64,000 nucleotides of DNA from contig CM027385.1 in the NCBI GenBank assembly GCA_015680905.1, positions 78,451,501 to 78,515,500 of the forward strand, written 5' to 3'. The notes below the pieces were generated by a model, which was not told the origin of the DNA, did no database searches, and saw only the letters and a program-made list of their open reading frames with translations. The position numbers and the translations under genes are program-made. The DNA is from Coptis chinensis. Lineage: Eukaryota; Streptophyta; Magnoliopsida; Ranunculales; Ranunculaceae. Position 1 is the stretch's first letter. Each line of letters begins with the position of its first letter. Shown one piece after another: positions 1,135 through 56,800 of this stretch.

Positions 1135-1875
1135 TGTAAGAAACTTATTTCAAAAATATACTTATTGTTAAGTAAACAAGAAAATCAAATTGATATGAAC
1201 AAACCTTTAATTTCAACAAACAAACAAACCTTTTAGTTCAACTAATGAACTTAATTTACCAATGATTAAATCCGAGCCTAGTGAAGATTCACTATGTCCT
1301 TAAGACAGATTTTCCCCCTCACGGTGCTTGAAGGTTGATGGGAAACTATCTCCCAAGATAGAACGGATTTCCTTCTATAGAAAGCTAGCACTTCAATTCT
1401 ATAGAGACTGAAACACAACATAGTATTTGACTAAGAACGGGGGGAAGAGAAAGATCGAACTTCTGTGTGATCCGGTGTATTTTTCTCTCCAAATTCATCC
1501 ACTATTTATAGGTGAGTGGTGCCTTTTCAAAACAACACGGTGACTCTTGGGAAAAAGTAAGCAACTCTTTGAAAAGTCACATGTTTGAAAGGACACCACC
1601 ATTTCGACATATATCAATGTTTGAACCGATTGCCTATTCGAAAAGGTTGCACCTTTTCGGCATGATGCCTTTGTTTCAAACCCGGTGCACATTTCGAAGG
1701 TCGCGACCTTTTCGCATAATGCCTTGTTTCAAACAAATGCATCATTTTGAAAAGGTTTTTCTCACATTACGCATCTTTGTTTCAAGAAAAACCCATTTCA
1801 TCTTAAGTGGGGTAACTTGGGAGACAAACTACTCATTCATATTTAAATGGATTTGAGCAAATCATTTTTCTAACA
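1135..1875 (-). repeat. LTR A
   Basis: 741 bp, TGTAAGAAAC...TTCTAACA on the plus strand. On the minus (sense) strand it is the 3'-most LTR, preceded by a purine tract (plus-strand ATCCCCACATG at 1876-1886). Confidence 0.85.
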
Positions 1876-2523
1876 ATCCCCACATGAATGAAAATTTGGC
1901 TTCTTCTATCATAAACATCGGATTTCGTTCTTTTACAAATGAAAAGATACCGCGATCGGTCAAGTAGCATGGGAGGCCTTGAACTTGCCTTTAGTGAAAG
2001 ACGATCGGATTTAATTGGACGATCAATAGACTTCAATTAATGTCCTTGAACTGTCCACCGTTTGTATAAACCTAAACAATCATCTTCCTTTGATGATCGC
2101 CTCGAATCTTGTTGGTTCTCACGTTTGTGTTCATTTTGGCCTTGAACACTTCTTGGTTTCGAGATAGTGCTTTTGAGACATTTGTCTTTAAAATTCTCAT
2201 AGAAGCCGCCCCACTTCCATACTAACATAGGTGATTTCTATAAAGAGTATCCTGCAATACTCCACTTGGATAACATAACTTTCAAGATATAGTAAGTCAT
2301 TAAAAGCTTGACTTATCCGGTTCTCATGGCGGATATGCACCGCCTTTATATAGGAATGGGTTAGAGTATATTATTACTCTCGGTCTCGAGTCACGCACAT
2401 AATTCGCTTAGCCCTTTGAACCTAGATCTTGGGATCTCCAAATAACTAGGTTGGTTTTTCCATTATGAGGGACTCTTGGTTGATTATCTCAAAGGCTTTA
2501 AGTCCATTACCCTTGATAATCTT

Positions 2524-2781
2524 TCAACTTGCTCTCTTGTTAAACCTTTTGTAAGCGGATCCATGAATGTTATCTTTTGACCTTACATAGTCGATTGAGA
2601 TAACTCCATTTGAGAGCAATTGTCTAACGGTGTTATGTCTACGACGTACGATGTGTCGAGACTTCCTATTATACATGCTACTTTGTGCTCCACCAATAGC
2701 AGATTGGTCATCACAATGTATACACACCGCTAGCACGGGTTTAGCTCGGTTTGAAATATCCTCTAAGAAATTTGAAGTCAC
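2524..2781 (-). pseudogene. Copia RNase H C-terminal remnant, copy 1
   Basis: The ORF contains CIHCDDQSAIGGAQSSMYN, KSRHI and HNTVRQLLSNGVISIDYV, the standard end of the Ty1/copia RNase H domain (CDNQ-A, KSRHI, HN..R.L...G.I....V...DNIAD). Its last residues are frameshifted relative to the copy at 6120-6368. No upstream reverse transcriptase is present. Confidence 0.85.
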
Positions 2782-3239
2782 TCAAACCTTCACCGTACCT
2801 CGGCCCAACGTCAGCTATGAATTCCGATTCCATATATAGTGGACCTTGCTATGACGTTTGCTATAAGGATTTCTTTGAAATTTATGCATCTCTCCTAGAG
2901 CAAAACACCACATTTGATGTCTTTTGAGTAATGCTTCAACAAATTTCCAATTTTGAATTGATTAATTCAAGAAGATACATAATCCCCACATTTTTCCAAT
3001 TTCTCATGACAAAGTCAATAAATTGGAAAACCATTTAGATATATGTTTTCAAGTGAGGCTTCTTCTTAAAGAATGTCACATATCATTCATATAGTGTCGA
3101 AAAACACTTCTAAGACCTCAATTTTGCTTACAAGTATGCTTATAAAACAATATCTTAAGCAATCTTCTTTATTGACACTCTTTGGCGCAATAGTAAAACA
3201 CATATATCTTACAAATAATACAATATTTTTAGAACCCTT

Positions 3240-3884
3240 TTAGCACCAGCCATTCATAACATCTGGAATGAAGCAAGGATTCTCAGAATCTTGGATCATA
3301 ATTCCCTCCAAGTGTGGCATTACCACCACCTTGTTTGTTTTCAAGAAGTCCATTCCAAGAATGACTTGAAAATGGTCTAAGCGAGCTACCATCAGGTCCA
3401 CCTTTCCTCGCCAGTTGTGCATCTTAATGCAAACTTCCAAAGCGAGTCCTTTCACCGGTTTGGCTTCTTGGTTCAAGCCTCTCATAGATCGAGCCTGTAC
3501 ATTCTGCGAGTTTCAATCCAATAGCCTCGGATACATACTCAGAGATTAACGTATGAGTTGAACCAGTATCCACCATCTTTAGACACACCCGTAGTTGTTG
3601 AGTTCCACTTCTACGAACATAAGGTCATCATCGGGGACCAAAATGTTCATACCATTCAACGAACTAGTTGGTAAAGGAAATGAAATAGGAATAGCATTAA
3701 TAGGAGAACCTGGTGGTGTTGTCATTTCTATTCTGAAATAGAAACACACCTTGTTATTCTTTAAAACAGAAACAAATTCTGAAATAAAAAATTCACTCAC
3801 AAAATAATATGTGAACTTGCTACTGTTTGAGAAAGAATTGGTGTCGAAAGTACCTTTTCCGTAAGAGACAGAACCAAATTCCAA
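3240..3884 (-). pseudogene. Retropepsin-like domain, copy 1 (broken)
   Basis: Two minus-strand ORFs (3579-3884 and 3240-3485) correspond to one domain. The first ends where copy 2 continues into the DTGST catalytic motif. The second contains ILGMDFL, the hydrophobic-Gly motif near the end of plant gypsy-type aspartic proteases. A frameshift near 3579 removes the catalytic Asp frame. The domain sits 5' of a copia RNase H tail, which is not the usual copia order or protease type. Confidence 0.65.
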
Positions 3885-4763
3885 CAGGACAAACCCTTTG
3901 AATATTGTTTCGTACCTTTAGAAACTATTTGGTTTGAAAGTCAGGAGAAAACAATTCTCTAATAGGTACAAAACCTTTTAGTATTTGAAATCGTCAATTT
4001 AACATATGCACTTTGTACTTTCTGATTTTTTGTTATGACACATGTCATTCATTGAGTAAGTCTAGCGGTTTGGACATTAGACTCTCCAAATTTGTATTGT
4101 GAATCGTCTTATTCACGACAGTTGCCCCGTAAAAGTTTAAACCGTTTCTGTGGGACCACTTCCAAGAGTTGTGGCTGTTCAAACTTAATCCTTTTTACTT
4201 TTAGAACATGCCTCCTTTCGAAACCATACGACTTCAGTGACTAAATTCACTGTTAGTTATTGGTTCGTTTGACACGGTCAAAAAGACTTAAAGTCTTGAA
4301 TCAGACCTTACTAACAGGTGGCTCTCTTCCGTATTTTAAATAGAAAACACAAATAGTGAATGGAATAGTGTATCCATCTCATTTGTTGCCTCTCTGGTTC
4401 AAAGTCCAGATAAAAGTGGCGTCAAGCACCAACTTATCTTGCACTCACAACGTTTGATATGATGACATCATCATTCCAGAGAAATTAATATTTGAATAAA
4501 GTCCCAATTTAATAAAATCATACCTGATGACCAATACCTTTCCGTTAATATTTGAACAAAGGGCATGCAATTAACTAGAAATACAATAATACATACCTGC
4601 CCCAGTTAAAAAAAACGTGTTTGTGACATATCAATATTTTGACCACCGCTTCTCAACGAAACGTGAACAAAACACTTTTAAAAATGTTAGTTCATTAACA
4701 ATAAGTATAGCCAAAATTAATTAAACCAAATTAATACAAGGCAATAAGAATATGTCTTAAGTT

Positions 4764-5506
4764 TGTAAGAAACTTATTCCAAAAATATACTTATTGTTAA
4801 GTAAACAAGAAAATCAAATTGATATGAACAAACCTTTAATTTCAACAAACAAACAAACCTTTTAGTTCAACTAATGAACTTAATTTACCAATGATTAAAT
4901 CCGAGCCTAGTGAAGATTCACTATGTCCTTAAGACAGATTTTTCCCCTCACGGTGCTTGAAGGTTGATGGGAAACTATCTCCCAAGATAGAACGGATTTC
5001 CTTCTATAGAAAGCTAGCACTTCAATTCTATAGACTCAGCGAACACAACATAGTATTTGACTAAGAACAGGGGGAGAAGAGAAAGATCAGAACTCTGTGT
5101 GATCTGGTGTATTTTTCTCTCCAAATTCATCCACTATTTATAGGTGAGTGGTGCCTTTTCGAAACAACACAGTGACTCTTGGGAAAAAGTAAGCAACTCT
5201 TTGAAAAGTCACATGTTTCGAAAGGACACACCATTTCGACATATAGCACTGTTTCGAACCAGTGCCTATTTCGAAAGGTTGCACCTTTTCGGCATGATGC
5301 ACTGTTTCAAACCAAGACACATTTGAAAAGGTCGCACCTTTTCAAAGATAATGCAATCGTTTCAAACAAATGCATCATTTTGAAAAGGTTTTTCTCACAT
5401 TACGTCTTGTTTCAAGAAAAACCCATTTCATCTTAAGTGGGGGTAACTTGGGAGACAAACTACTCATTCATATTTAAATGGATTTGAGCAAATCATTTTT
5501 CTAACA
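4764..5506 (-). repeat. LTR B
   Basis: 743 bp, shared between the two internal regions. It carries a run of TTTCGAAA-rich imperfect repeats (about 5215-5395). Its CAG/CTG-containing words (for example around 5086-5110) appear as CG/CCG words in LTRs A, C and D. Confidence 0.85.
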
Positions 5507-6119
5507 ATCCCCACATGAATGAAAAATTTGGCTTCTTCTATCATAAACATCGGTTTACGTTCTTTTACAAATGAAAAGATACCGCGACGTCAAGTAGCAT
5601 GGGAGGCCTTGAACTTGCCTTAGTGAAAGACGATCGGATTTAATTGGACGATCAATAGACTTCAATTAATGTCCTTGAACCTGTCCACCGTTTGTATAAA
5701 CCTAAACAATCATCTTCACGCAAAGATCGCCTCGAAATCTTGTTGGTTCTCACGTTTGTGTTCATTTTGGCCTTGAACACTTCTTGGTTTCAGATAGTGC
5801 TTTTTGAGACATTTGTCTTTAAAATTCTCATAGAAGCGGCCCCACTTCGCACTAACATAGGTGATTTCTATAAAGAGTATCCTGCAATACTCCACTTGGA
5901 TAACATAACTTTCCAAGATATAGTAAGTCATTAAAAGCTTGACTTATCCTGGTTCTCGCGGCAGATATGCACTGTCTTATATAGGAATGGGTTAGAGTAT
6001 ATTATTACTCTCCAAGTGCTGACTGAGTCACAGACATAATTCAGTTAGCCCTTTGAACCTAGATCTTGGGATCTCCAGTCAACTAGGTTGGTTTTTCCAT
6101 TATGAGGACTCTTGGTTGA

Positions 6120-6368
6120 TTATCTCAAAGGCTTTAAGTCCATTACCCTTGATAATCTTTCAACTTGCTCTCTTGTTAAACCTTTTGTAAGCAGATCCGC
6201 AATGTTATCTTTTGACCTTACATAGTCGATTGAGATAACTCCATTTGAGAGCAATTGTCTAACGGTGTTATGTTTACGACGTATGTGTCGAGACTTCCTA
6301 TTATACATGCTACTTTGTGCTCCACCAATAGCAGATTGGTCATCACAATGTATACACACTGCTAGCAC
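6120..6368 (-). pseudogene. Copia RNase H C-terminal remnant, copy 2
   Basis: Same domain as 2524-2781 but with the end in frame: KSRHIRRKHNTVRQLL, SKDNIADLLTKGLTREQVE and a terminal LKPLR. This is the full copia C-terminus. It is a duplicate created with the LTR array. Confidence 0.85.
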
Positions 6369-6865
6369 GGGTTTAGCTCGGTTTGAAATATCCTCTAAGA
6401 AATTTCGAAGTCACTCAGCTTCGCAGCTTCGTCTACCCTCGTCCAACGCTATGAATTATGATTCCATATATAGTGGACCTTGCTATGCACGTTTGCTATA
6501 AGGATTTCTTTGAAATTTATGCATCTCTCCTAGAGCAAAACACCACATTTGATGTCTTTTGAGTAATGCTTCAACAAATTTCCAATTTTGAATTGATTAA
6601 TTCAAGAAGATACATAATCCCCCACATTTTTCCAATTTCTCATGACAAAGTCAATAAATTGGAAAACCATTTAGATATATGTTTTTCAAGTGAGGCTTCT
6701 TCTTAAAGAATGTCACATATCATTCATATAGTGTCGAAAACACTTCTAAGACCTCAATTTTGCTTACAAGTATGCTTATAAAACAATATCTTAAGCAATC
6801 TTCTTTATTGACACTCTTTTGGTATAATAGTAAAACACATATATCTTACAAATAATACAATATTT

Positions 6866-7527
6866 TTAGAACCCTTTTTTTTGACCATTCATAACATCCG
6901 GAATGAAGCAAGGATTCTCAGAATCTTGGATCATAATTCCCTCCAAGTGTGGCATTACCACCACCTTGTTTGTTTTCAAGAAGTCCATTCCAAGAATGAC
7001 TTGAAAATGGTCTAAGCGAGCTACCATCAGGTCCACCTTTCCTCGCCAGTTGTGCATCTTAATGCAAACTTCCAAAGCGAGTCCTTTCACCGGTTTGGCT
7101 TCTTGGTTCAAGCCTCTCATAGATCGAGCCTCCTGACATTCTGCGAAGTTTCAATCCAATAGCCTCGGATACATACTTTCGAGGAGATTAACGTATGAGT
7201 TGAACCAGTATCCACCATTGCTAGTAGACACCCGTAGTTGTTGAGTTCCACTTCTACGAACATAAGGTCATCATCGGGGACCAAAATGTTCATACCATTC
7301 AACGAACTAGTTGGTAAAGGAAATGAAATAGGAATAGCATTAATAGGAGAACCTGGTGGTGTTGTCATTTCTATTCTGAAATAGAAACACACCTTGTTAT
7401 TCTTTAAAACAGAAACAAATTCTGAAATAAAAAATTCACTCACAAAATAATATGTGAACTTGCTACTGTTTGAGAAAGAATTGGTGTCGAAAGTACCTTT
7501 TCCGTAAGAGACAGAACCAAATTCCAA
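6866..7527 (-). pseudogene. Retropepsin-like domain, copy 2 (frameshifted)
   Basis: ORF 7117-7527 shows AMVDTGSTHTLISS, the catalytic D-T/S-G motif of aspartic proteases. The adjoining ORF 6866-7120 shows VILGMDFLKTNKVVV. A frameshift near 7120 separates them. The pattern resembles gypsy-type retropepsins rather than the copia protease (usually WxxDSGAT/CSxH). It lies between the sense-strand 5' leader (8404-7528) and the RNase H tail. Confidence 0.7.
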
Positions 7528-8404
7528 CAGGACAAACCCTTTGAATATTGTTTCGTACCTTTAGAAACTATTTGGTTTGAAAGTCAGGAGAAAACAATTC
7601 TCTAATAGGTACAAAACCTTTTAGTATTTGAAATCGTCAATTTAACATATGCACTTTGTACTTTCTGATTTTTTGTTATGACACATGTCATTCATTGAGT
7701 AAGTCTAGCGGTTTGGACATTAGACTCTCCAAATTTGTATTGTGAATCGTCTTATTCACGACAGTTGCCCCGTAAAAGTTTAAACCGTTTCTGTGGGACC
7801 ACTTCCAAGAGTTGTGGCTGTTCAAACTTAATCCTTTTTACTTTTAGAACATGCCTCCTTTCGAAACCATACGACTTCAGTGACTAAATTCACTGTTAGT
7901 TATTGGTTCGTTTGACACGGTCAAAAAGACTTAAAGTCTTGAATCAGACCTTACTAACAGGTGGCTCTCTTCCGTATTTTAAATAGAAAACACAAATAGT
8001 GAATGGAATAGTGTATCCATCTCATTTGTTGCCTCTCTGGTTCAAAGTCCAGATAAAAGTGGCGTCAAGCACCAACTTATCTTGCACTCACAACGTTTGA
8101 TATGATGACATCATCATTCCAGAGAAATTAATATTTGAATAAAGTCCCAATTTAATAAAATCATACCTGATGACCAATACCTTTCCGTTAATATTTGAAC
8201 AAAGGGCATGCAATTAACTAGAAATACAATAATACATACCTGCCTTGATTAAAAAAACGTGTTTGTGACATATCAATATTTTGACCACGCTTCTCAACGA
8301 AACGTGAACAAAACACTTTTAAAAATGTTAGTTCATTAACAATAAGTATAGCCAAAATTAATTAAACCAAATTAATACAAGGCAATAAGAATATGTCTTA
8401 AGTT

Positions 8405-9148
8405 TGTAAGAAACTTATTCCAAAAATATACTTATTGTTAAGTAAAACAAGAAAATCAAATTGATATGAACAAACCTTTAATTTCAACAAACAAACAAAC
8501 CTTTTAGTTCAACTAATGAACTTAATTTACCAATGATTAAATCCGAGGCCTAGTGAAGATTCACTATGTCCTTAAGACAGATTTTTCCCCACACGGTGCT
8601 TGAAGGTTGATGGGAAACTATCTCCCAAGATAGAACGATTTTCTTCTATAGAAAGCTAAGACTTCAATTCTATGACTCGGTGAACACAAACATAGTATTT
8701 GACTAAGAATAGGGAGAAGAGAAAGATCGAACTCGTGTGATCACGGTGTATTTTTCTCTCCAAATTCATCCACTATTTATAGGTGAGTGGTGCCTTTTCA
8801 AAACAACACGGTGACTCTTGGAAAAAAAGTAAGCAACTCTTTGAAAAGTCACATGTTTGAAAGGACACACCATTTCGGCATATAAGACCGCTTTTGAACC
8901 GAGGCCTATTTCGAAAAGGTTGCACATTTTCGCATGATGATGCCTTTGTTTCAAACCGGTGCACATTTCGAAGGTCGCACCTTTTTCGGCATAATGACCT
9001 GTTGTTTCAAACAAATGCATCATTTTGAAAAGGTTTTTCTCACATTACGTACTGTTTCAAGAAAAAACCCATTTCATCTTAACTGGGGTAACTTGGGAGA
9101 CAAACTACTCATTCATATTTAAATGGATTTGAGCAAATTATTTTTCTA
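8405..9148 (-). repeat. LTR C (end lost at an inversion junction)
   Basis: Starts TGTAAGAAAC like A and B but breaks off at TTTTTCTAT, where a reversed internal fragment begins. The expected TAACA terminus is missing. Confidence 0.8.
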
Positions 9149-9316
9149 TTGCGCCAAAGAGCGTCAATAAAGAAGATTGCTTAAGATATTGTTTTATAAA
9201 CATACTTGTAAGCAAAATTGAGGTCTTAGAAGTGTTTTCGACACTATATGAATGATATGTGACATTCTTTAAGAAGAAGCCTCACTTGAAAAACATATAT
9301 CTAAATGGTTTTCCCA
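9149..9316 (+). repeat. Inverted fragment of the array's internal region
   Basis: This stretch is the reverse complement of roughly 3023-3190 (shared words: CAATAAAGAAGATTGCTTAAG, TCTTAGAAGTGTTTTCGAC). It sits between LTR C and LTR D with a TAT microhomology at the left junction. Confidence 0.8.
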
Positions 9317-9351
9317 TGCTAATACAAACTATATGAAAATCTGTCTTACGT

Positions 9352-10054
9352 TGTTAGGAATATACAACTTAATTGTACTTACTCTTTACCAATTACCAAA
9401 CTATACAAACCTTTTGTCTTGTAAGTGTCTTGTACTTCTTAATTAAATCCGAGCCTAGTGTAGATACACTATGTCCTTAAGACAGATTTTCCCCCTCACG
9501 GTGCTTGAAGGTTGATGGGAAACTATCTCCCAAGATAACGGATTTCCTTCTACATAAAGCTAAGACTTCAATTATATAGACTCAACGAACACAACATAGT
9601 ATTTGACTAAGAACGAGGGAGAAGAGAAAGATCGAACTACGTGTGATCACGGTGTCTTTTCTCTCCAAATTCATCCATTATTTATAGGTGAATTGTGCCT
9701 TTTCGAAACAACACGGTGACTCTTGGGGAAAAGTAAGCAAACTCTTTGAAAAGTCACATGTTTCAAAAGGACACACCATTTCGGCATATATAAAGATTTG
9801 AACCAATGCCTATTTCGAAGGTTGCACCTTTTCGGCATGATCTTGACTTTTCAAACCAAATGCACATTTCGAAGTCGTCGCACGACTTTTCGGCATAATC
9901 GATTGTTTTCAAACAAATCGCATCATTTTGAAAAGGTTTTTCTCACATTACGTACTGTTTCAATAAAAAACCCATTTCATCTTAAGTGGGGTAACTTGGG
10001 AGACAAACTACTCATTCATATTTAAATGGATTTGAGCAAATCATTTTTCTAACA
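9352..10054 (-). repeat. LTR D (diverged)
   Basis: The 3' two thirds align with LTRs A-C. The start (TGTTAGGAATATAC) is different, so D comes from a relative or a recombinant copy. It ends CTAACA at 10054, next to host sequence. Confidence 0.75.
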
Positions 10055-10982
10055 ATTAACTACATGTAAATATGTAATTAATACTGTGACCTACTTGTAC
10101 TGATCAACATTTTCCTCGCGAGAGTACTAGTACAGTAGTACATAATAATAATATTGACAATTTCTAAATAGAGAAATAAGTGAGTCTTCTCTTGCTTTCT
10201 TTGATTTCAATGGATATACTGTTGGAGCATCCATATCCACCTAATCTAGTGAATAGTAGTCTCTTCTACCCAATCTCTTTAGAAAAAACATGCTTGAGCT
10301 AGACTATACTGAAATTTATCTATTATAAATATTTTCAACTACACTGTCGAGTGTCAACATTGATTTAAATAAGGAACAAATTTTTTCTATTCTATTTCGC
10401 TACATACTTTAAGTTTTACTTAGTTTTTTGGTAAATTCTTAATTTTTTATTACCTAATACTCATTCAATATGTCGAAGACCCTTGTCATGTTTTTTACAT
10501 GTTCTTCCTAAATTTGACGTAAAAGCAACTCTCTAAAATGGTTTGTCAATCGACAGGGTAATCGAAGACGTACCTGAAACGACTGTAAACAGATGTTTTC
10601 CATGGGGTGGAATTTTTATTGTAATCATCAGGTTTAAGTACTAGTGTACTTCAAAAAAATTTATAGTGTATTTGTATTTTAGGCTTTTGCAATCATCTAT
10701 TGTCTATAATATATTTGTATTAGTTGTAATTGCCTGTTTTTAGGCTTGAAGAGGTATGTAAGATTTTAATATTTTAATTCACGATACGATGAACTTTTCT
10801 CTGTCACATGTGTGGACTACTCAGGCACCACAGTCAAGTATATCGGTTATTGACATTGACATAGTTAAAGTCACGTGATAGTTTTGTAGTGGGCGTCATA
10901 AAAGTTTGTCCCACGCAGTCCTTGTTTCTCTAGTAGTACAATACACAGTGATCAAAGCCAGAAATCTCCCTAGAGCTAAAAA
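10055..10982 (+). promoter_or_regulatory. Upstream region of dioxygenase gene 1
   Basis: Non-coding, AT-rich, and matched by 59780-61150. A G-box core CACGTG lies at 10872-10877. A TATA-like CATAAAAG lies at about 10897-10904, roughly 80 bp before the ATG. Genes 2 and 3 keep the CATAAAAG/CATAAGAG and the segment ending in CCCTAGAGCTAAAAAATG, but lack the G-box and most of the distal region. Confidence 0.45.
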
Positions 10983-11518: not shown

Positions 11519-14500
11519 GTATATATGTTCCCCCTTGGTTTTGTTGGTTGATGTTATTAATTAACTTATGTTTAAGAGCAGCTTGATTAGATATAAGGAA
11601 TTGTAGCAAAAACTGGTAATATCTAGTGATAGAGAAATTAATTTTCAATTTTTAGAATACATGAGCGCTCAGATCAATTGGTTATTTTCGATCTTTCCGT
11701 TTTCCCTCAAAAGAGTGGAGCATGATCTCCCAGAGAGGAGAGTGACCATCATTGACTGACAACTTCTTCTTCTCTGACCAGACTCTTTTTGAAGATTTTT
11801 CTTCTCTAAGAACTGATCTAACATATACTACCATGGAAAACCCACTAGCTTCAGTCAATGATTTTCCCCCCTTACCAGCAACATCTCCAACTGTTGCTAG
11901 CTAGTAATGTTGCTCCTCAAGATTCAAACTTGACTTCTCCATTAGTTCAAGTTCACACTCCTAATCCATGGAGCTCTCTCTTCAAAACAAGTAGCTCTGC
12001 TGCGTTAAAGAAGGTGAATGTCAACATAGTTGATGGTGTCGCAATAATCCCATCTGATATTATTAACAAGGGTATAACCGAGTGGAGTGACTATGTGGTG
12101 GTCTTTTTCATCGGAAGGAGGCTGCCTTACCCCTTAGTGCGGGATTTTTTGTAAAAGAACTGGAAAATCAAGGGCGAGTACTCCATCTCTACTGACAAAG
12201 ATTTATTCTACTTCAAATTCAGTTACTTTAGATGAAGATATGAGGCAAATCTTAGACGCAAACCCAATCTATATCACTGGGAAGCTTTTTGTGGTTCGGC
12301 AGTGGACACCGAGGTGGAAGCTCAGAAATCTTCAATTAAAACATTGGCAGTTTGGGTAAAACTGATGAACTTACCCAAACATTTATGGACAGATGATGGA
12401 CTCGACTATATAGCTAGTCTAATAGGAAATCCTATTTGTATGGACCAAGCCACTAAGCTATGACAGAGACTCGACTTTGCAAAGTTTTGTGTTGAGGTTC
12501 CACCTGACCATGAGTATAAGAAATCAGTGAGGATCAAGATAAATGGAAAGGAGATGAAGAGCTTGAATACCCATGGATTCCAGTAGTCTGCCTAGCTTGT
12601 AAAAAGTTTGGGCACAAAGGCAGTCAGCTGTGCATCCAAGGTTAAAACTGTATGGGCAGCAAAAGAGACTAATGACAAGCAAAAAGAGCGAGAGGTGAAT
12701 AATGTACCAGCTGAAGTAATTGAAGATATTAATGTGGTGGACAATTGTAATGAAAATCAGGACTTTGATGTAAGTTTTATATCCCCAGCTATAGAGCAAC
12801 CTAGTGAACCAATTGTGCATACTATTGTGTGTACCCTACGTCATATTTCCGGTCCAAAGTATACTCGGACTATGAACCGGGTGTAAGACCAACGGCGGAC
12901 CAGTTTGGGGGCAAACACTTTGGATAATCCGGTCCTCTAATCCGTTAGAGTTCACAACGGGTTTAGGGCCTATCCGGGTGGCCCAAGTTCGTGGACCCAA
13001 TCCGTCCGGATCATTCTGATCCAGTCACCCGATAAGATCCTAATGCAATCCGATAAGATCTTGCACAAGGATAGAATGGAATCTTAGAGAATGATCCTAT
13101 TTTAGATAGAGTCATGATAGGATTCATGAAAGAATGCAATCTTCGAGAATCACTTTCTTGGCCGCCAAGGCAGGAGATTGCTATATATACTGAGGCTTCT
13201 GCATCTTCTAGAACTACGTTTTTAAGAGACTTGATCCCGGATTCCTCACTGGGTACGTAGGCAACCAGAATGTTGGTGCAGTCTCTCTTCCTCAAAAATC
13301 CCAATCCCCCATCTCTTTCGAGCCTACGGAAGCACCATCACATCGGGAGTGTCGGGTTAACGTTTTGCCCCGACATTCTTTGGCGCCGTCTGTGGGGACC
13401 GAACCCCGACCGCGTGGAATTCCGTTGGAGTTTGATATCATCGGCCTTATTTTTCATCGTCCCTTGTTACTATGGTGAACAAATTGCGATGAGTATCTGC
13501 CGCTGCCGGTCGGCATGTAGCAACTCGCAAAACATGGAGACTATTCCGGGCACCACTACGGAGGTGGGGCGGTTGAGCCGTCGTAGAGATCTTTCTCGAG
13601 CGGAGGAAACGGTATGCCCGAAGTAGTTCCACACACTCTGGAGCCATTAGGGACTCGGGGAATCTAATCCCGTGTCCTCGCCGCAATCTTTGTCGGAGTC
13701 ACGAGCTGCCGAGAATCCACGTCGGGGATGGTCTGCTGAACCCACCCGTGATGCTACTTTAGCGACGTCAATAAGGGGCGGGGAGGCCGACGTGCTAACC
13801 CAGCGCCTCCATCCGAACTTGCAATACCAATCGGATCCGACTTTAATATCTCTTTTGACAAAGAGTAGTTGCGGAAAAACGAAAATTTGAGAAATCAACT
13901 AGGCAAAGCGGCCTAGAGACCGCGGAGCACCAATCGGTCGAGTCCCCTTTGTGCGCTTGCGTAGGCAAAGGCAACGAGCAGGAACGACAGCGAAGATCCT
14001 AATAATGGCCAAAACCTTATTCACAATAATGGTCAAGCTAGAGATCCAAGCCAAAGCCGGACTATCCACCCTATCGTGTCCGCCCACACTCATTCCGCGG
14101 TCAAACAATGTGCGGGATCGTTTGGGCACAAATCCTCGGACACCCGATCCACAACAAACTGGAGCGCCAAACAAATGCATTGAGTTCGGTTGAGAAACAC
14201 CAAACATCCGTGGATGTGTCAGGATCAAGATATGAATCCCAACACACAAATCGGAATGAGAGTCCGCTACCGCTAACAGAGTGGCGAAAAGTGCGTAGGT
14301 GGGTAGAATCGAACATCGGCAACGACCGAATCCCTTCGAATCTTAGCCCGCGATGAGCGGATCGGAGAGAAGAGAATCAAGATGAGGACAATTTGTGAGA
14401 ATATGAATGAACAAAGGGTTAAGGAATTGATTAACCAAGCCGTGACCGGGCAAACCATCGAGAGGCGATCCACTCTTGGAAAGGGTCAATGCGAGGTCCG

Positions 14501-17500
14501 AAATTTTCACCCTTTGTAAATGACATTCGGGATTTGGTTTCATCCGAGGCATTCAAACAGACCCCCTCTTCCGACTTACGATGGCGTGGATGGTCTGTCG
14601 AGCGAGCACGTCATGAGCTACCAGCGGCTATGACCTTATGGGAATTTCATGAGTCGTTAATGTGTCGATATTTTTCAAGGGTGACGTTGAAAGGATACGC
14701 ACTATCACGGTTCAACAAGTTGCCTCAGCGTTCAATTGATTCATTTACCAAGCTCGGTTGATATGTTCATTGAGCGTTTTCGATCAACACGAAGGCGAAG
14801 AAGAGTCGAGCACACCTGTTCAATCTCGCTATGGAGAAAAGCGAAACAATTAAGAGTTTGGTACGACGGTTCAGGAAGCTTCACACCGAAGTTCAGGATG
14901 TGAGTGATGTTTTCGCAATACAAGCCTTCCATCAAGCGTTGCATTTCGACAAAGATGGACTTTACAACTCTCTCACTCGAAAGCCACCTACCACCCTTTC
15001 TGATTTATTCGCCCGAGTGGAAGGGTACGTTCGAGTGGAAGATGATCAAAAGTCTCGACAGAGAAAGGATGGCGCAGATCCAGCTTCCAAGGACTCCACA
15101 AAGGATAAGATCGCCAGTCAAGGTAACAAGAGGAGTACTTTCGAATAATACAAAGGCCCCAAATATAGAGGAAAAGGTATTCACCCCTTTAACTCTTAGC
15201 CTTTTCTGCGACTGCATGCGAAAAAATCGGAACTAAAAATGTTCTTTGCCCATTTCGGCGCTACGAGGAAGATCCTACGGTGGTGGCGGGATAAAAATCG
15301 AAAATGCAAATATCACGATGATATTGGGCATGAAACAGATCAACTGCAGAGCTTTGAAGAAAGAAGTTGGCGCCTCGTTGACGAGGAATTTTTCTCGAGT
15401 TTGTTCAAAACAAACCTCGGTCGACCCATCTCAACTTAATTTGAACACAACGTTATCGATGTATGCCATGCGGCGTGTCGATATCGTCTCACGTCGTCGG
15501 CACAAGATAGAAACACGCTTTGAAACCGTCATCATATACAAGATCATTACCGGTCAGCGGTTTCAATTTTGACCAAGGTATCGATCACGAAACCTATGAA
15601 GGTCCGCGAGTTGAAGTTCGAGAATGACGAAAAGGGTGTATTACCCTCACAATGATATTTGTTGTCATTCTTGCATGGATATGAATCTTTAGGGTCGCGA
15701 GAAGATTCTTATCGACACGAGAAGCTTCGGCTAAGCGTGTTATTCACCGGCTTACTCTCGAATGAAACTATCGGAGGACTGATCATAGAAGACCGTAACC
15801 CAATCATTGGATTCAACGGCGAACCCCCATGCCATTGGAAAGGTTCATCTCCCATCCGCGGTTGGGCATCAACTGTCGGGATAAATTTCCTTCCGATAGA
15901 TTGTGGTTCTTGTTACAATGCAATTTTCGGTAGGGATTGGATCCATGCAAATCGGGTTGTTGTATCCACCTTCCACCAGGCGTTGAAATTCCCCGCCACG
16001 AGGAGTATGTAAGATCCGCAGATGACGGATGATGTCACATCGGTGTCATGATTTGGCACTAGAAGATCTGAAAATCGAAGTCCGGGCAACACGATTCTCG
16101 GGTTGATCATGCCAAATAGCAATTACTGAAACGTTGGGCTTATCAGTCACGAAGCCCGATGCTCTGAAAAGGGTCCCTCGATCGATCAGTTGGAGGAAGT
16201 TCAGATAGGGGGCGAGAGCCACGAAACTACTTTCATCGTTGCCGGCTTACCCCCAACCGAAAAAAGGGCTCTAATTCACCTGTTATGGGATTATCAAGAA
16301 ATATTTGCTGGGATATCAACCAAATGCGAGTCGACCACGGATGTAAACACCCACAGTTCGATATTGACACGAGATTCAAACCGGTTCGACAAAGACCAAA
16401 GGCGGATGGCTCGGCGAAAACTAAAGGTCAATGATGAAATTGGTAAACTGCTTGGAGCGGGGTTCATCAAACCCGTCGAATACCGACTTGGGTATCAATA
16501 TCGTCAGCGGTTCCAAAGAAAAATGGGAAGCTTCGGGGTTTGCATTGACTTCACCAACCTAAACAAAGCTTGCCCCGGTGCATCCATACCCATTACCTCG
16601 CATCTCGGATCTAGTCGATCGCGACCTCGGTTTTGAGCCCTCATCGTTCATGGGCGCTTCCTCCGGTTATAACCGGATACCTCGCTTGAGGAGGACCGAG
16701 GAGCACACGGCGTTAAGTAGCGGACCATGGACTGTATTGCTTTAGAGTCATGCCATTTGGTCTGAAAAATGCAGACACCACCTATTAGAGGATGATGAAT
16801 ACAATGTTTGCCGATCTGATTGGGCGTATCATGGAAGTTTACATCGATGACATGGTGGTCAAATCCAAAGAAACACCTGACCACCTTCCGGCATTTACAA
16901 GAGGTATTCGATAGGCTCGTAAGATATAAATTGAAGTTGAACCCTTCGAAGTGTTCTTTTGGGTTAGCATCTGGAAAGTTCTTAGGATTTCTGATGACTC
17001 GACGGGGTATCGAGGCAAACCCTGAACAGATTCGGGCCATTCTCAAAATGCCCCACCCTCGAATAAAAAAAAAATTCAGTGCTCGCCCGGTCGTTTAGCG
17101 ACCACGAATAGATTTATATCAAAGTATTCGGATCGATGCGGGCCATTTTTCAAACGTTGAAAGGTGCCTCCGTTTGGAACGAGGACTGTGATAGGGCTTT
17201 TAAAGAAATTAAAGCATACTTGGTATCACCCCCCGATCTGGTTAGTCCGCCAAACCGCCAAGACATTGGAATTTATTTGGCGCTTTTCGAGATCGCAGTA
17301 AAGAGCAGTGATATTGTTTATGGAAAACCGGAGGGCGCCCAATCTACTTCATTAGCAAAATGTTGATTTGGATCGAGAGTAGATATTCTAAAATTGAGAA
17401 AATCGCTTGCCCTTGTGCATGCAACACGTAGACTTAAGCCTTATTTTTTAGGGGCGTGTGGTGAAAGTGTATCTGAGAATATCCCGCCCGAAGGCACTTT

Positions 17501-31117: not shown

Positions 31118-31308
31118 ATCTCCCCCTCGAGCGGTGAGGGGGATACCTCCATGCAATTGCCAAATCGCAGGAGGAGTCCGCTACCATTCCGGGCGGTAGC
31201 ACAACAAATATCAAACTTACCTTTTCGGTAAGACTTTGGTCATCATATCCAACCCGTTCTTGTCGGTATGGATCTTCTCGATACACAAATGCTTGTCTTC
31301 GAAAGTAC

Positions 31309-44060: not shown

Positions 44061-44099
<39 letters not shown>

Positions 44100-47087: not shown

Positions 47088-47296
47088 TCAACTTTCAAAC
47101 TACACTGTCAACATTGATTTGTCTACTATATTTTTTTTATGTCGTCGCTTGTGATGAACTTTTCTCTTTGTATCATGTGGACTGTGGACCATTTCGCACG
47201 AGGGGTCATAAGAGTTTGTCCTATCACTGTTTCTTAGTGGTCATCAAGTGCAATACAGACAGTGATCTAAGCCAGAAACCTCCCTAGAGCTAAAAA

Positions 47297-47829: not shown

Positions 47830-50800
47830 GTATATATGTTCCCCCTTGGTTTTGTTGGTTGATGTTATTAATTAACTTATGTTTAAGAGCAGCTTGATTA
47901 GATATAAGGAATTGTAGCAAAAACTGGTAATATCTAGTGATAGAGAAATTAATTTTCAATTTTTAGAATACATGAGCGTTCAGATCAATTGGTTATTTTT
48001 TATCTTTCCGTTTTCCCTCAAAAGAGTGGAGCATGATCTCCCTGAGAGGAGAATGACCATCATTGACTGACAACTTCTTCTTCTCTGACCAGACTCTTTT
48101 TGAAGATTTTTCTTCTCTAAGAACTGATCTAACATATACTACCATGGAAAACCCACTAGCTTCAGTCAATGATTTTCCCCCCTTACCAGCAACATCTCCA
48201 ACCGTTGCTAGCTAGTAATGTTCCTCCTCAAGATTCAAACTTGACTTCTCCATTAGTTCAAGTTCACACTCCTAATCCATGGAGCTCTCTCTTCAAAACA
48301 AGTAGCTCTGCTGCGTTAAAGAAGGTGAATGTCAACATAGTTGATGGTGTTGCAATATTCCCATCTGATATTATTTTTTTTTTGAAAAGTTTGCTGGGGT
48401 TAAGGCAAACCCCCACCTGTTTATTGCACATAGAGAAACATTACATACCTTCCCTAAGAGTATGATCATTAGAGGGAGGTACACATAACATAATGCATCA
48501 AGCCTAAAACACTTGGGATTTCTCCCTACACATACATTCCCGAAGGAACAAACTCTAGCAAGAAGACCACAATCAGCAACCCCATCAACCATAGCATGAG
48601 GGACCGTCTGCCTTCAATCCACACCCCAAACAAAGACAGAGAGCACATACCACTAAGGCAACCTATTGATAATCTATGACGGTATTGCGGCCGTTCGACC
48701 CAGATCATTAAAGGGAACATACAAAGACTACAACAGGCATGAAGCCTTCACAAAAATGAGATTAATCATAACACATACCACAAGCAAGTATTCATAGGAA
48801 TCGTCTCATTTGATCTCCTACTTTCTAGCCTTCAATTGCTTTACTATCTTAGGATGATCTTTCCTAAGATGAAGTTGCGCTTTCTCATAGTCACAAAAAA
48901 AACACCCACAAGCACAACACACGTATGTGAGTCCCAAAGTGTCATCCCAAAACTCTTTCGTATAATCCTCAAGATATCTCTTTTTGGTTTTGGTTAGTGA
49001 CTTTACCTTCTTCATCATTGCGAGAGTAGGCTCAATTTCTCCAGAAGAACGCTCTTGGATTCTTTTGCTTCTTTTTGACTTTACAGTGGACCAATCCTCT
49101 GAAGACATTTTATGCCTCGACCTGCTTTTAGGCAAGTGGTCATTAAATAATTCTTCCTCACAATCTGATAGGTCATCCATATCATCAACCTCCTCATTTT
49201 CAACAACTAACCCTTCATACATATTTCTTTCTCGGCTATTGGGTAGTTGGGGAAAAGGAGTAATCATATCTTGGTGCCTCTAGATAGGTGTAACCATAAT
49301 GCTCTCCTTGAGATCTCTTTGGTCCCCAATAACACCACATTGCACCTGTGTAATATCGGTTTCCGTATGTGTACATACCACTACACCTGGTGAAATCAAA
49401 TGAAAGTTACTCGCAATTGCTCCTTGCAATTGGGGAGCAGAGTTCACTTGTGCTCCCCCTCAATCTAATTGGTTCATTGTCCTTTGGAGTTTAAGGCTGA
49501 GGAGCCGACCCTAAACTCACTCTAAGCAACCCCTGAGAGATTGGGGTTTGAACATGACTATTGTGAATCACCATAGCAGTTGAAACTGCTTCTTCCTCAC
49601 TCACACGATTTGTCTCTGTATCCACACCACCAGGAGTACTTTGAACCGATTAATGCGCCCTGCGAACTATTACTCCCATTGGGTAAGCGACCATCTTGTC
49701 GCCGCTTGAGCCATTTGAGCCCCCGCTACTTGTTGCTCTTGAGTTTTGGATACCGATTGATTTTCTTTCCTCTCGTTCCAAAGAACTCGCGATATCCATT
49801 TGCCCCGTGTCCACACCCACGCACTCCTCATACCACATTCTTTGTGTAGTATGCCCAAATCAATTACACTTTTCACAAGATTGGGCCTTCCATGGGTACT
49901 CCGAGAGGTATAACGATTTTCGATCCCCAACTTTGATTTTTATGGTTTCGTTGTACTTTCATGATTCATCGTGTAGAAAAATTTCGTTTCTCACGATCGA
50001 GCGGCTTTCGAGTGAAGCGACTTCAGCGCTCATGACTCGATGATTTAGCGCTGGCAAAGAAAGCGACCAGCGCTCGTGGCTTTTTAAATGTAGCGGTATA
50101 CCAGAGGAGAAGGGCGCCAGCGCTTCGGGCTTTTTCTCCGTGGGCTTATTCACAAGAACCGCGAAATTTTGGTTTTGGTATAAAAACAAAATCGATCTTT
50201 GGAAAACCTAACTTTTTCCAAAACCAAGAAAAGAGTGATTACAAGAGAACAATTCTTTGTGAGTTGAGTGTTCATTCTTTGTGAGTGAATTGAGAGAGAC
50301 TTGTAATCGTTACTCGGGACATCTAGTAAAGCTTGGAACTCGCGGTGTGGGCGTAGGCAAATTGCGAACCACGATATATCTCGTCTTGTGGTTTGTTCTT
50401 CTTTTACATTGATTGTTTTATTTCATATGCTTGTTATTTGATATATGAGAAGTGTTGGGATATTGCTTGGAGGGTGTTGAAGTCTTGTCTATTAAGAAAG
50501 ATCAATCTTTGTGTAGGATTGATCCGTTTGGGTCAATGGGTAACGTTGTTTCCATGATTAATTATTCACAACAATTGGTATCGAGGCGTAGGTATATCGA
50601 CCCAGGATTTTGAGTTTAGTACTAAAAATTTGTGTAGACAAGGTGTTCGATTAAATTCGATGTGAAACCGCTGTTTCTTTTGGGTTATTGTGTGTAACTT
50701 GAAAGATGGCTCCCAAGATGTCAAACGCTTGAGGTTTGAAGTAGAAGTTTAATGGGAAGAATAACTTTGGGATTTGGCAAGTCCAAGTAAAGGACATCCT

Positions 50801-53800
50801 CATCCAACAAAGGTTTGCCTGAGGCTTTGAAGGGGATTAAATCGGCGCGGCGAAAGTATGAGTAATGATGATTGGGAAGAGTTCGATCTTGAGGCTTGTT
50901 CATCAATCCGGTTATGTCTTGCTAATGAGGTCATGTATAGTGTGATGGGAGAAAATACACCGCCGGTATTTGGCTCAAACTAGAGTCTATGTATATGACC
51001 AAGAGCATGACGAACAAGATGTACCTTAAGAAGCGTCTTTATCGGTATATGATGGTGAATTGTTCAACGATGTAACAACACGTTAGTGAGTTCCGTCAAC
51101 GCCTAGCGGATTAATTGAATGTGGGTATGAAGATGGATGATGAGGATCAAGCGGCATGTTTAATATTCTCCTTGCCAGAAAGCTATGAGCATCTAATGAC
51201 TACATTCATGAACAGAGAAGTCGTCGATCTTGACGAAGTTCAGAGTGCACTTCTTTCTTATGAGTTGATGAAGAAGACACGCGTGTAGAGAATAGCATTG
51301 ATGCAAGTCGGGGGCTAGTGGCAAGAGGAAATTGATGCGAACGTAAATTATTCAAGTAATGATAATTCTAGGTCCAAGTCAAAGAAGCCTTTAAAACATG
51401 TCTGTGCTACAATTGCAATGAAAAAAGACGACATTACATAAAGTAATTGTCCTCACCAAGAAAGAGAACAAGAGAGATGGTCAGAAGAAAGGTAAGGCAA
51501 AATTTGAGGCAAATTATGCTTCAGGCTCTGAAGAGGATGAGTTCAGTCTCTGTGTGTCCACACAAGACTATATGACCGAGAGGTGGATCCTTGATTCCGG
51601 ATGTTCCTATCATATGTGCCCGAATAGAAAGTGGTTTACTTTTATGAGAGCATTGATGGTGGTTCCGTTTTAATGGGTAATGGCGTTGCTTGTAAGGCGG
51701 CGGTAGAATTGGAACTATAACGGGTCAAGATGTATGATGGTGTAGTGAGGACTCTAACCGATGTGAGACATGTTCCCGAGCTAAAGAAAAGTCTTATTTC
51801 TCTTGGTACCTTGGATTCCAAAGGCCACAAGTTTGTGGTGAAGGTGGAGCCCTAAATATTGTTAATGGCTCTTTAGTTGTTATGAAGGGTAAAAATATGG
51901 AACCTTGTATACTCGATTGGTAGTACGGTGATAAGCGATGTAGCGATGGGTGCATGTAGTAATGATTCCGAAAGTACACTAAGATGTGGCATATCGTTTA
52001 GGGCATATGAGTGAAAAGCGGTTTGTCCGAGTTTGTGCAGCGAGGGTTCTTGAAGAACTTGAAGAAGCCAAGTATGGGGTTCGCGTGACCATCGTCTATG
52101 GGAAGCAAAGCGAGTCAAGTTCAAGTCAAGCAAGCACACGACAACAGCATCCTTGATTATGTGCATACGGATGTTTGGGGACCCTCCGTGGTGGCTTCAA
52201 GGGAGGTAACCGCTATTATGTCTCATTCATTGATGATCATACTCGCTATGTGTGGGTGTATATGATGAAATCGAAAGATGAAGTGTTTGAGACATTTAAG
52301 AAGTGGAAGGCAAAGGGTTGAGAATCGCACGGATAGGAAGGTAAAGGCATACTGGATTACAATGGTAATCGAGTATACCTATGGACCTTTCCAAGAGTTA
52401 CGTGCTAATGTGGAATTGCATTAATCGGACGATCGAGGGGCGCCACGCCAGAATGGAATGGCGAGAGGATGAATAGAACTTTGCTTGAAAGAGCAAGATG
52501 TTTATTGTCTAATGCCGGTCCCAGGCAAAAGAGTATTAGGCGGATGCGGTGTCCATGGCGTGTTACCCGCATCAATAGGTCACCAATTACCGGCTATAGA
52601 TTGCGGGACACCTTATGAGGTGTGGTCGTAACCCGGTGATTATAGTATCTTATGAGTGTTTGGATCGACGACTTACTACCATGTGAGGGACGACAAGCTA
52701 GATCCTAGAGCTAAGAAGGCCATATTCTTAGGCTCGCAAAATGGGGGTAAAGGGATACGATTGTGGTGTCTAGAAGCCCACAAGTTCTGGTCGGTCCAGA
52801 GATGTTACTTTTGATGAGACTTACGTGTTATCTTTGAAGAAGGCGGTAGCAACCGCGAGAATGGTGGCGAAGTCTATAGGTTCAAGCTAATGAGCTTGAG
52901 TTGTCGATGCGTGAGATATTTGGTTAGATCATGATGAGGTAAACCGAATCATGGAACCAACAAACGGGGAAGAAGAGCAAGAGCATTCGCGAACTTGTGG
53001 TGGTGACCCAGCCACGAGACAAGTTAAAGAAGTGCACAAGTATGGGCACGAAGAAGCCGATGAAACACTATGGTCGGTGGATTTAGTGGCATATGACCGA
53101 ATATCGAAGATGATGAGCCGATAGCTTCAAGGAAGCCGTTAGAGATGCTCATTACTGAGAGATTGGTTAGTAGCTATGCAAGCAGAGATGGAATCTCTTG
53201 ATAAAAATCACACATGGGACCTAGTTTTATTGCCAAAGGGCAAAAGGACTATCGGCGATAAATGGGTGTTGAAGAAAGAGGTCCTTCCCGAGTCCGACAA
53301 AGATCGGGTACAAGGCAAAAGAGTGGTAGCAAAGGGTTTTCACGAAGGAAGGAGTTGACTACAATGAGGTATTTTCCCGGTGGTCAAACATCACGTCCAT
53401 TCGTGTGTTATTGAGTTTAGTTGCTTCGCCGACTTGGAGTTAGAGCAACTTGATGTGAAAACTGCTTTCTTGCATGGGGACTTGGAAGAAGAGATCTATA
53501 TGAGACAACCTGAAGGGTTTGTCGTTGCTGAGAAAGAAGATTATGTATGTAAATTGAATCGGTCACTGTACGGGTTAAAGCAATCGCCCATGCAATGGTA
53601 CAAGCGCTTTGACACATTCATGATGCAACATGAGTACACCCGAAGTAAGTATGACTGCTGTGTCTACTTTAGAAGGCTTCGTGGTAATGACTTCATCTAT
53701 CTCCTGCTTTATGTGGATGACATGCTTATTGCTTCCAAAAGCATGGTGGAGATAGACAAGTTGAAATCTCAACTTAGCTCTGAGTTTGAGATGAAAGACT

Positions 53801-56800
53801 TAGGTGGAGCCAAGAAGATCTTGGGCATGGAGAGATTGAGAGATAGGAAGAAGTTTACGGATAGTTGTATCTCGGAAGAAATACATTGAGAAAGTAATTT
53901 CTCGATTTGGTATGGAGAATGCAAAGTCGGTTTCTACTCCTTTAGTTGGGCATTTTAGGCTTTTCACTAAGTTCTCTCCTAGTCGATTGGAGGAACAAAA
54001 GCATATGGCTAATGTTCCTTATGCAAGTGCCGTGGGTAGTTTGATGTATGCTATGGTATGCACGCGCCCGGACATTTTCCGCGCGATTAGTGTTGTGAGC
54101 GGTATATGGCAAATCGGGAAAGCATTGGGAGGCGATGAAATGGGGTACTCACGGTGGTGCTTGAAGCGGTACTTTGGATGTGGGATTAGCTTATGGTGGA
54201 GGCACTTGTTATGTCGGTGGGTTTGTGGATTCGATTATGCGCGGTGATCTAGATAGACGACGATCAACTACCGGTTATGTGTTTATGATGCATGGTGCAC
54301 CGGTTAGTTGGAGGTCTATGCTACAGCTACCGCTGCTCTATCTACTACCGGCGAGTATATGGCAATGGGGAGGCAAATGAAAGAGGCACTATGGCTTCGA
54401 GGTCTTCTAGATGATTTGGGTATTGAAGCGAGCGGTGTTGCTTTGTATTGTGATAGTCGAGTGCTATTCATTTTGGCGAAGAACCAAGTTCATCATGCTC
54501 GGACCAAGCATATTGATGTCCGTTATCACTTTATACGGGATGTCGTTGAGGATGGTGATGTAGCACTTGAGAAAGTAGACACCCATGACAATCCTGGCCG
54601 ATATGCGGACGAAAGTTGTCACGGAGTTAAGTTCCAACACCGTTTGGACTTGCTCCAAATCCTACATGTTGAAAAGAGCCCTGTGTGGGCATAGCCGCTT
54701 CTGGGCGGTTATTCGCGAAGTCTTCCTTCTTTGGAGGTGTTCCCTTGGATGTGATCTTCTTTGGATGTGATCTTTGTTGGATGTGTTCGGCTTGGTTTTA
54801 TGTCTTAAAACCTCACCGAGGTGGAGAATGTAGAGAAAATTTTCGTTTCTCACGATCGAGCGGCGCCAGCGCCAGAGTGAAGCGCGATCGCGCTCATGAC
54901 TCCAGATGATTTTGGCTTGGCGCAAAGAAAGCGACCAGCGACTGGCCATGGCTTTTTAACATAGCGCCAGCCTTCGAGCTTTTTTCTCCGTGGACTTATA
55001 CAAGAACGCGAAATTTTGGTTTTTGGTATAAAAACAAAATCAGTCTTTTGGAAAACCTAACTTTTTCCAAAACCAAGAAAGAGAGTAATTACAAGAGAAC
55101 AATTCTTTGTGAGTTGAGTGTTCATTCTTTGTGAGTGAATTGAGAGAGACTTGTAATCAGTTACTCCGGACATCTAGTAAAGCTTGGAACTCGCGTGGTG
55201 GGCGGTAGGCAAATTGCGAACCACGATATATCTCGTCTTGTGGTTTGTTCTTCTTTTACATTGATTGTTTTATTTCATATGCTTGTTATTTGATATTGAG
55301 AAGTGTTGGGATATTGCTTGGAGGGTGTTGAAGTCTTGTCTATTGAGAAAGATCAATCTTTGTGTAGGATTGATCCGTTTGGTGTGGGTAACGTTGTTTC
55401 CGCAGTTAATTATTCACAACACACTGGAAATTCAATACAAAACCGAGCAAAAGACAACCTTTTCCTCTTAGCAATAGCACCGTCCATATATTTTGGTACT
55501 CCACCTACCAAACTAGCTAGGTACGACAATCCATCCAGTGTCCACATCTCCTTGGGCACATCCATCAGCTTTACCCAAAGTGGTATTGTAGCCTCCTTGC
55601 TCCTGTAGTTGTTTACCTCTACTGTCCAAGGCTTTATCACGAACACTCTCCCCGCAATAAAAACTGGGCCTTCATCTAAAACCATTTGTCGATCATCTGA
55701 GCATGTAAAACCGAGTGGAGCGACTATGTGGTGGCCTTTTTCATCGGAAGGAGGCTGCCTTACCCCTTAGTGCGGGATTTTTTGCAAAAGAACTGGAAAA
55801 TCAAGGGCGAGTACTCTATCTCCACTGACAAAGATTTATTCTACTTCAAATTCAGTTTAGATGAAGATATGAGGCAAATCTTAGAAGCAGACCCAATCTA
55901 TATCACTGGGAAGTTTTTTGTCGTTCGGCAGTGGACACCAAAAGTGGAAGCTCAGAAATCTTCAATTAAAACATTGCCAGTTTGGGTAAAACTGATGAAC
56001 TTACCCAAACATTTATGGACAGATGATGGACTCGACTATATAGCTAGTCTAATAGGAAATCCTATTTGTATGAACCAGGCCACTAATCTAAGACAGAGAC
56101 TCGATTTTGCAAAGTTTTGTGTTGAGGTTCCACCTGACCATGAGTATAAGAAATCAGTGAGGATCAAGATAAATGGAAAGGAGATGAAGAGCTTGAATAC
56201 CCATGGATTCCAGTAGTCTGCCTAGCTTGTAAAAAGTTTGGGCACAAAGGCAGTCAGCTGTGCATCCAAGGTTAAAACTGTATGGGCAGCAAAAGAGACT
56301 AATGACAAGCAGAAAGAGCTAGAGGTGAATAATGTACCAGCTGAAGTAATTGAAGATATTAATGTGGTGGACAATTGTAATGAAAATCTGGACTTTGATG
56401 TAAGTTTTATATCCCCAGCTATAGAGCAACCTAGTGAACCCATTGTGCAGACTGTAAATCCCTTCCAAATGATTGAACAAGAAGAAGGGGAGGAATTAGG
56501 TACACCTCCACATTCGCACAGATGAACTTCAAGTAACATTCAATTGATCTCATCTGGCGTACTACACCATACACATGTGGAAACAGTAACTGCATTGGTG
56601 CAAGGTGGTGTTCTTAGTGACCAAAGAGAAGCGAGTAATATGGTTTTACACCAATCCATACTCCCTTGAACCATCTGCCGAATAGTAGAGAAATAAACAT
56701 GTATGAAGGGTTAGTTGCCGGAAATGAGGAGGTAGATGATGTTCTCTCCGAGAATGAATTCGAGTTGTTTGGGGATAGAGTGGCCCCAACACTTGCATTG

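Follow-up and report, generated by a model that had tools for sequence, protein, structure and literature searches.

Repeat content of the window

The window analysed here, 64 kb of Coptis chinensis DNA (contig CM027385.1, positions 78,451,501 to 78,515,500 of the forward strand), is made up of plant repeats, among them Ty3/gypsy and Ty1/copia elements. Between near-identical repeat copies in this window, CAG or CTG in one copy is exchanged for a CG-containing form in the other, and it is this exchange and its origin that are considered below. Among the best matches listed for two retrotransposon open reading frames (120 of 1645 and 120 of 5219), the best named ones for the gypsy frame are a Papaver somniferum sequence (54% identity) and a protein from Coptis chinensis (76% over 56% of the query), and that for the copia frame is from Cornus florida (73%). 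By themselves these matches place the DNA among the eudicots and no further.

One gypsy element (12826-22343) has two long terminal repeats (LTRs) that are 96.7% alike. It splits another repeat, the flanks of which (12072-12823 and 22346-22680) match an unbroken copy at 55705-56782. Short tandem repeats of ~20 bp with CCGGTTCA-like cores lie inside the element before its second LTR (20828-21402). LTR-like units are also found at 1135, 4764 and 8405, ~3.6 kb apart, with a partial fourth at 9442; those in 1135-10056 may have arisen when an LTR element underwent unequal recombination.

Exchange of CAG/CTG for CG between repeat copies

The initial annotation reported that many differences between near-identical transposon copies take one form, CAG or CTG in one copy and CG, CGG or CCG in the other, and counting confirms an exchange beyond chance. 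Eleven pairs of repeat copies, chosen from 35 self-BLAST rows, were aligned, and a site was scored when the 5-nt flanks on both sides were intact in the other copy. The comparison covered 28 strand-merged trinucleotide classes free of CG, namely CAG/CTG and 27 others. CG had been gained in the other copy at 40 of 588 CAG/CTG sites (6.8%), against at most 1.4% in each of the 27 other classes, the next being TCA/TGA (17/1219), ACA/TGT (14/1004) and CCA/TGG (11/835). The differences are thereby concentrated at a known methylation context. CAG and CTG are CHG sites (H being A, C or T), and 5-methylcytosine (5mC) occurs at CHG in plant DNA.

The contrast survives the removal of single transitions, with CG gained at 22/588 CAG/CTG sites against 73/24,760 sites of the other 27 classes (Fisher P 3e-16), and is thus not carried by deamination-like changes alone. 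Nor is it due to the reuse of copies, since the eight pairs that share no copy give 18/451 against 57/19,587 after the same exclusion (P 5e-14); both P values are optimistic because neighbouring sites are not independent. The two strand forms are affected alike, CAG becoming CGG 16 times and CTG becoming CCG 14 times, as expected for a symmetric mark. Among isolated one-base indels CAG/CTG is again the top class (7/783), a small number in a count where gap placement perhaps scatters events. Two of the 11 pairs (12072-12823 with 55705-56453 and 22346-22680 with 56451-56782) contain no CG-gain event at CAG/CTG.

The examples on which the annotation had relied are found in the sequence. GATCAGAAC and ATCTGGTG near 5086 stand against GATCGAAC and ATCCGGTG near 1452, and against GATCGAAC and ATCACGGTG near 8722. 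The quoted differences between 54866 and 50008 and between 43755 and 26995 are likewise present, and the LTRs of the gypsy element differ in the same manner, through two strings that each occur once in the window, GGACCAGTTTG at 12897 and GGACGGTTTG at 21869.

Composition and patches

Computed along the window, as the annotation had suggested, the density of CAG/CTG proves depleted and patchy, and the observed/expected ratio (o/e) of CG is higher where CAG/CTG is lower. CAG (573 observed, 834 expected) and CTG (572, 837) are the most depleted trinucleotides of the whole window, whose strongest enrichment is that of CGG (532, 447). Across 2-kb bins the CAG/CTG o/e ranges from 0.30 to 1.15 and is near normal at 28-30, 44-46 and 56-58 kb (1.04, 1.01 and 0.87). 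Relative to base composition, CAG/CTG varies most of the 28 classes between these bins (coefficient of variation 0.42), followed by GCA/TGC (0.32) and GCC/GGC (0.28). At most three CAG/CTG sites occur in 21 of 128 bins of 500 bp; a GC-matched Poisson model gives 5.3 such bins, with a maximum of 16 in 5000 simulations. CG o/e and CAG/CTG show opposite trends in 2-kb bins (rho -0.59).

The same patchiness is seen when the copy pairs are cut into 61 aligned bins of 300 columns. Seven bins have a CAG/CTG imbalance of at least 4 (Table 1), and in these the rich copies hold 58 sites and the poor copies 7, with 55 and 98 CG, respectively. In five of these bins the first copy is the poor one and in two the second, and near-identical bins that keep all their CAG/CTG, for example 14 against 14 with a single difference, occur in the same pairs. 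Imbalances of this size are also found for other classes: AAA/TTT in nine bins (232 vs 185), CCG/CGG in six (49 vs 18) and ACT/AGT in six (75 vs 49).

Within the patches, which were chosen by their CAG/CTG imbalance, 75 of 95 CAG/CTG sites are altered, against fractions of 0.06-0.39 for other CG-free trinucleotides. With the 2-nt flanks included, 78 of the 95 sites differ, and CG is gained in 47 of those 78. CG is not the sole product, as five of the altered sites printed hold CAAAG, three of them at CAGCA.

Table 1. Coordinates of the repeat features, patches and coding fragments (patch coordinates other than 23760-24056 are approximate, those of 1435-1730 to ~10 nt because of gaps)
Feature	Position	Strand	Observation
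Patch	1435-1730		CAG/CTG 1 vs 8, CG 13 vs 8 (against copy ~5064-5360); bin 300, pair 1135/4764
Patch	2330-2630		CAG/CTG 0 vs 8, CG 8 vs 4 (against sister copy); bin 1200, pair 1135/4764
Patch	8705-9000		CAG/CTG 0 vs 8, CG 13 vs 7 (against copy ~5064-5357); bin 300, pair 4764/8405
Patch in copia element	23760-24056		CAG/CTG 1 vs 9, CG 10 vs 7; inferred frameshifts near 23793 and 23876
Patch	25250-25550		CAG/CTG 1 vs 8, CG 16 vs 7; bin 1500, pair 23760/40508
Patch	26440-26740		CAG/CTG 2 vs 11, CG 25 vs 14; bin 2700, pair 23760/40508
Patch in other copia copy, opposite direction	42300-42600		CAG/CTG 2 vs 6, CG 13 vs 8; bin 1800, pair 23760/40508
Repeat copy	49975-50573		Against 54834-55421, both directions: CG in other copy at 2/5 and 4/9 CAG/CTG sites
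First LTR of gypsy element	12826-13373	+	CCAG form at 12897
Second LTR of same gypsy element	21797-22343	+	CGG form at 21869
Gypsy pol (integrase part)	18600-19040	+	All 5 frameshifts (reference P0005); 5 CAG/CTG in 441 nt
Copia pol fragment	31220-32360	-	5 frameshifts, 0 stops in 359 aligned codons (reference P0150)
Copia pol fragment	53488-54662	+	5 frameshifts, 0 stops in 377 aligned codons; CAG/CTG-free run 53780-54324

The window also contains perfect simple repeats (A30 at 44066-44095, A26 followed by (AT)26 at 63178-63255, and (CT)31 followed by (TA)13 at 369-456) and, near its end, a tandem array of a 55-bp unit (63633-63961; 5.9 copies, 75% matches).

Deamination and ordinary evolution

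Deamination had been set aside in the initial annotation on the ground that it would turn CAG/CTG into TAG/TTG. This argument is incomplete, for CpG deamination itself turns CGG into CAG and CCG into CTG; among the 40 flank-anchored CG gains, 18 are single transitions of this kind. Ordinary evolution could thus be invoked, with CG as the ancestral state, 5mCpG deamination as the source of CAG and CTG, and random indels in addition; the presence of CG in three of four LTR-like copies at several sites would agree with it. The other 22 of the 40 gains are not the single transitions that 5mCpG deamination alone would leave.

The context of the changes also speaks against this explanation. Isolated C-T differences between the copies make up 8.5% of CCG-CTG sites (29/343), against 1.7% for ACG-ATG (7/411), 2.1% for GCG-GTG (4/187) and 3.8% for TCG-TTG (19/502). 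Outside CpG the corresponding values are 0.4-3.2% (for example GCT-GTT, 20/632). The rise in all NCG contexts expected of 5mCpG deamination is therefore not seen in the copy pairs, where CCG alone is high; as ACG, GCG and TCG remain near the non-CpG level, CpG deamination appears weak between copies and leaves the CCG excess unexplained. Ordinary evolution would moreover require that the ‘derived’ copies have a normal CAG/CTG o/e near 1 and the ‘ancestral’ ones an abnormally low value, down to 0.3. It is considered very unlikely.

Repeat-induced point mutation or deamination at CHG would leave an excess of C>T/G>A at CAG/CTG itself, and none is found: such changes occur at 25 of 783 sites (3.2%), in a count that holds 78 CG gains, and other contexts range from ~1% to 4.7% (for instance CTC/GAG, 38/852).

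Homopolymer differences and frameshifts

Bins that have lost CAG/CTG carry other differences as well. Bins with a larger CAG/CTG imbalance tend to have more differences outside CAG/CTG sites (rho 0.48, P 9e-5) and more differences in homopolymer length (rho 0.44, P 4e-4); the former amount to 0.099, 0.060 and 0.031 per base at imbalances of at least 4, 2-3 and 0-1, respectively. A general low quality of the long-read consensus, in which methylation plays no part and repeat copies are, for instance, wrongly corrected against each other, would account for the rise of both kinds of difference in the unbalanced bins. Wrong self-correction has been reported for a nanopore plant assembly in the accessible part of one study (PMC9364492). 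It would give no reason, however, why CAG/CTG should be hit ~5 times more than any other CG-free trinucleotide and become CG, or why in the patches, allowing for their choice by CAG/CTG imbalance, alteration at CAG/CTG so exceeds that of the other classes. Low quality by itself is accordingly an improbable, if not negligible, explanation.

Frameshifts point in the same direction as the homopolymer differences. Four pol fragments were each aligned to one relative in a frameshift-tolerant manner, and 19 frameshifts were inferred in 1,424 codons. Three of the fragments (18.76-19.72, 31.2-32.4 and 53.5-54.7 kb), with their best-scoring references, together show 15 frameshifts in 1,051 codons, with stops absent; other references change the counts to between 3 and 7 per fragment. 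Frameshifts without stops fit sequencing indels, as a decaying transposon would be expected to gather stops too. A CG is found within 6 nt of 13 of the 19, compared with a background of 0.34-0.45 per region, and the frameshifts fall in CAG/CTG-poor sequence (3.8 sites on average within 150 nt; P 0.0016 by permutation). The gypsy integrase at 18600-19722 shows this best, as its second part (19041-19722) has no frameshift and 29 CAG/CTG in 682 nt (compare the first part in Table 1). Two marks of long-read error, homopolymer-length differences and frameshifts without stops, accompany the loss of CAG/CTG, with counterpoints that are taken up below.

These marks also bear on the possibility, raised in the initial annotation, that the mutational process is real and new. 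A clustered process acting on CHG-methylated cytosines could remove or replace the middle base of mCAG/mCTG and leave CG, altering the length as well, over stretches of a few hundred bases. The dependence on context, the patchy distribution and the changes of length would all agree with it. It offers no reason why homopolymer-length and other differences should rise in the same bins, or why three pol fragments should hold 15 frameshifts without a stop. It would also have removed 51 of 58 CAG/CTG in seven bins, yet left bins with 0-2 differences per 300 columns in the same pairs. Such a process is regarded as extremely unlikely.

Probable basecalling error at methylated CHG sites

The exchange of CAG/CTG for CG is, with high probability, the result of nanopore miscalls at CHG-methylated cytosines in an incompletely corrected consensus; the pattern exists in the file, but very probably not in the plant. 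The excess at CAG/CTG, its patchiness, its presence in both members of a pair and its occurrence alongside frameshifts and differences of homopolymer length and other kinds are observations. Long-read basecalling error at CHG-methylated transposons, which the initial annotation had favoured, is supported by them for the CAG/CTG form of CHG and on both strands, the platform and the methylation being presumed.

The assembly would rest on nanopore reads of native DNA. A basecaller whose training data came from humans and bacteria would have met 5mC mainly before G and, having learnt that a 5mC-like signal precedes G, may carry a bias by which methylated C implies CG. Where 5mC stood before A or T it would then tend to write CG, in the forms CG, CGG, CGA, CCG or ACG and often with a change of length. 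Such miscalls of mCAG and mCTG, with CHG methylation as the presumed trigger, would remain where the consensus was uncorrected or only partly corrected. CAG/CTG would be kept where short or accurate reads could correct it, giving rise to patches and to an apparent exchange between copies. Polishing was presumably incomplete, and the failure of short reads to map on error-dense sequence could have left such uncorrected stretches.

Several observations weigh against a basecalling origin. In composition, CCG, the complement of CGG, is not among the ten most enriched trinucleotides, and AGG/CCT (-0.64) and CTA/TAG (-0.61) correlate slightly more strongly with CG o/e than CAG/CTG does, so that the correlation of CAG/CTG with CG is not specific by itself. 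The excess of homopolymer-length differences does not rise steadily with imbalance (6.2, 7.0 and 2.5 per kb at imbalances of at least 4, 2-3 and 0-1), and in the six bins with no CAG/CTG in one copy the rate of other differences is not raised (0.048 vs 0.044). Among the pol fragments, the fourth (22.8-24.0 kb) has five stops beside its four frameshifts, and that at 31.2-32.4 kb shows one stop with three of four references. The association of frameshifts with CAG/CTG-poor sequence comes from two of the four fragments and is not local in the others (4.2 vs 4.8; 2.4 vs 2.5).

The polarity of the exchange adds to these points. At GATCAG, ATCTGG and CACAGTG sites in the copies at 1135, 4764, 8405 and 9442, three copies have CG and one has CAG/CTG. 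A plain majority would make CG ancestral there; a systematic error can yield the same result, and these sites were therefore not used for polarity. No clear polarity emerged from a codon test, in which the codons were few and the relatives distant. Of the CGG codons, 6% lie where relatives have Gln, within the 3-9% of other Arg codons; of the CCG codons, 12% lie where relatives have Leu (n=9), the other Pro codons giving 2-8%. Finally, searches for nanopore miscalls linked to methylation or to CHG did not find CG as a specific miscall at plant CHG sites in the accessible literature, which leaves out most subscription papers.

If the exchange is an artefact, plant assemblies of this kind may carry CHG methylation as false sequence, in which CAG/CTG is missing, CG is too frequent and transposon genes contain spurious frameshifts. 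Estimates of LTR age, CpG depletion, transposon decay and CHG density would then be biased, mainly in poorly corrected repeats. A drop in CAG/CTG relative to neighbouring stretches would serve as an inexpensive sign of such damage, and could be looked for without any reads. Read the other way round, the errors may roughly record where CHG methylation once lay.

Comparison with known systems

Repeat-induced point mutation and the deamination of 5mC are repeat-specific, methylation-linked changes at C that yield C-to-T and G-to-A. The exchange described here resembles them in its repeat-specific character and its presumed link to methylation at C, and differs from them in its products, as C>T/G>A changes (25/783) are fewer than CG gains (78/783).

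Sequencing errors at modified bases offer further parallels. Strong methylation in both CG and CHG has been described for the pea centromere and its flanking arms (PMC10027222, available text). In long-read assemblies of allotetraploid plants, on average 7.9% lay beyond short-read coverage, and in the nanopore assembly under study these stretches were error-dense, according to the accessible part of that report (PMC9364492). As far as their available text goes, two studies (PMC9749173, PMC7501810) found that nanopore accuracy falls on native plant DNA when the models have had no training on plants. These are alike in that modification of plant DNA is blamed for the trouble in basecalling, and unlike in that CG is mentioned in the available text of neither as what is written at CHG sites. 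The ambiguous positions that methylation induces in bacterial nanopore assemblies likewise are motif-bound errors that appear as reverse-complement patterns; in the accessible part of that work they are R/Y ambiguities at motifs of the RACG/CGTY type, and CAG/CTG to CG is not mentioned there (PMC11610573).

At the Dcm site of Enterobacteriaceae, the methylated cytosine stands before A or T, which is followed by G. In Klebsiella, ~70% of nanopore consensus errors made with default models concerned the methylated motif CCAGG/CCTGG, and they all but disappeared after training on such DNA, as given in the accessible part of the study (Wick et al., 2019; PMC6591954). The errors there are bound to CCAGG/CCTGG, and the wrong letters are not stated in that part of the text; the changes in the present window affect CAG/CTG generally, in patches of plant transposons. 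If the reading proposed here holds, both cases share 5mC before A or T and then G, models seemingly not trained on it, and systematic errors of the consensus.

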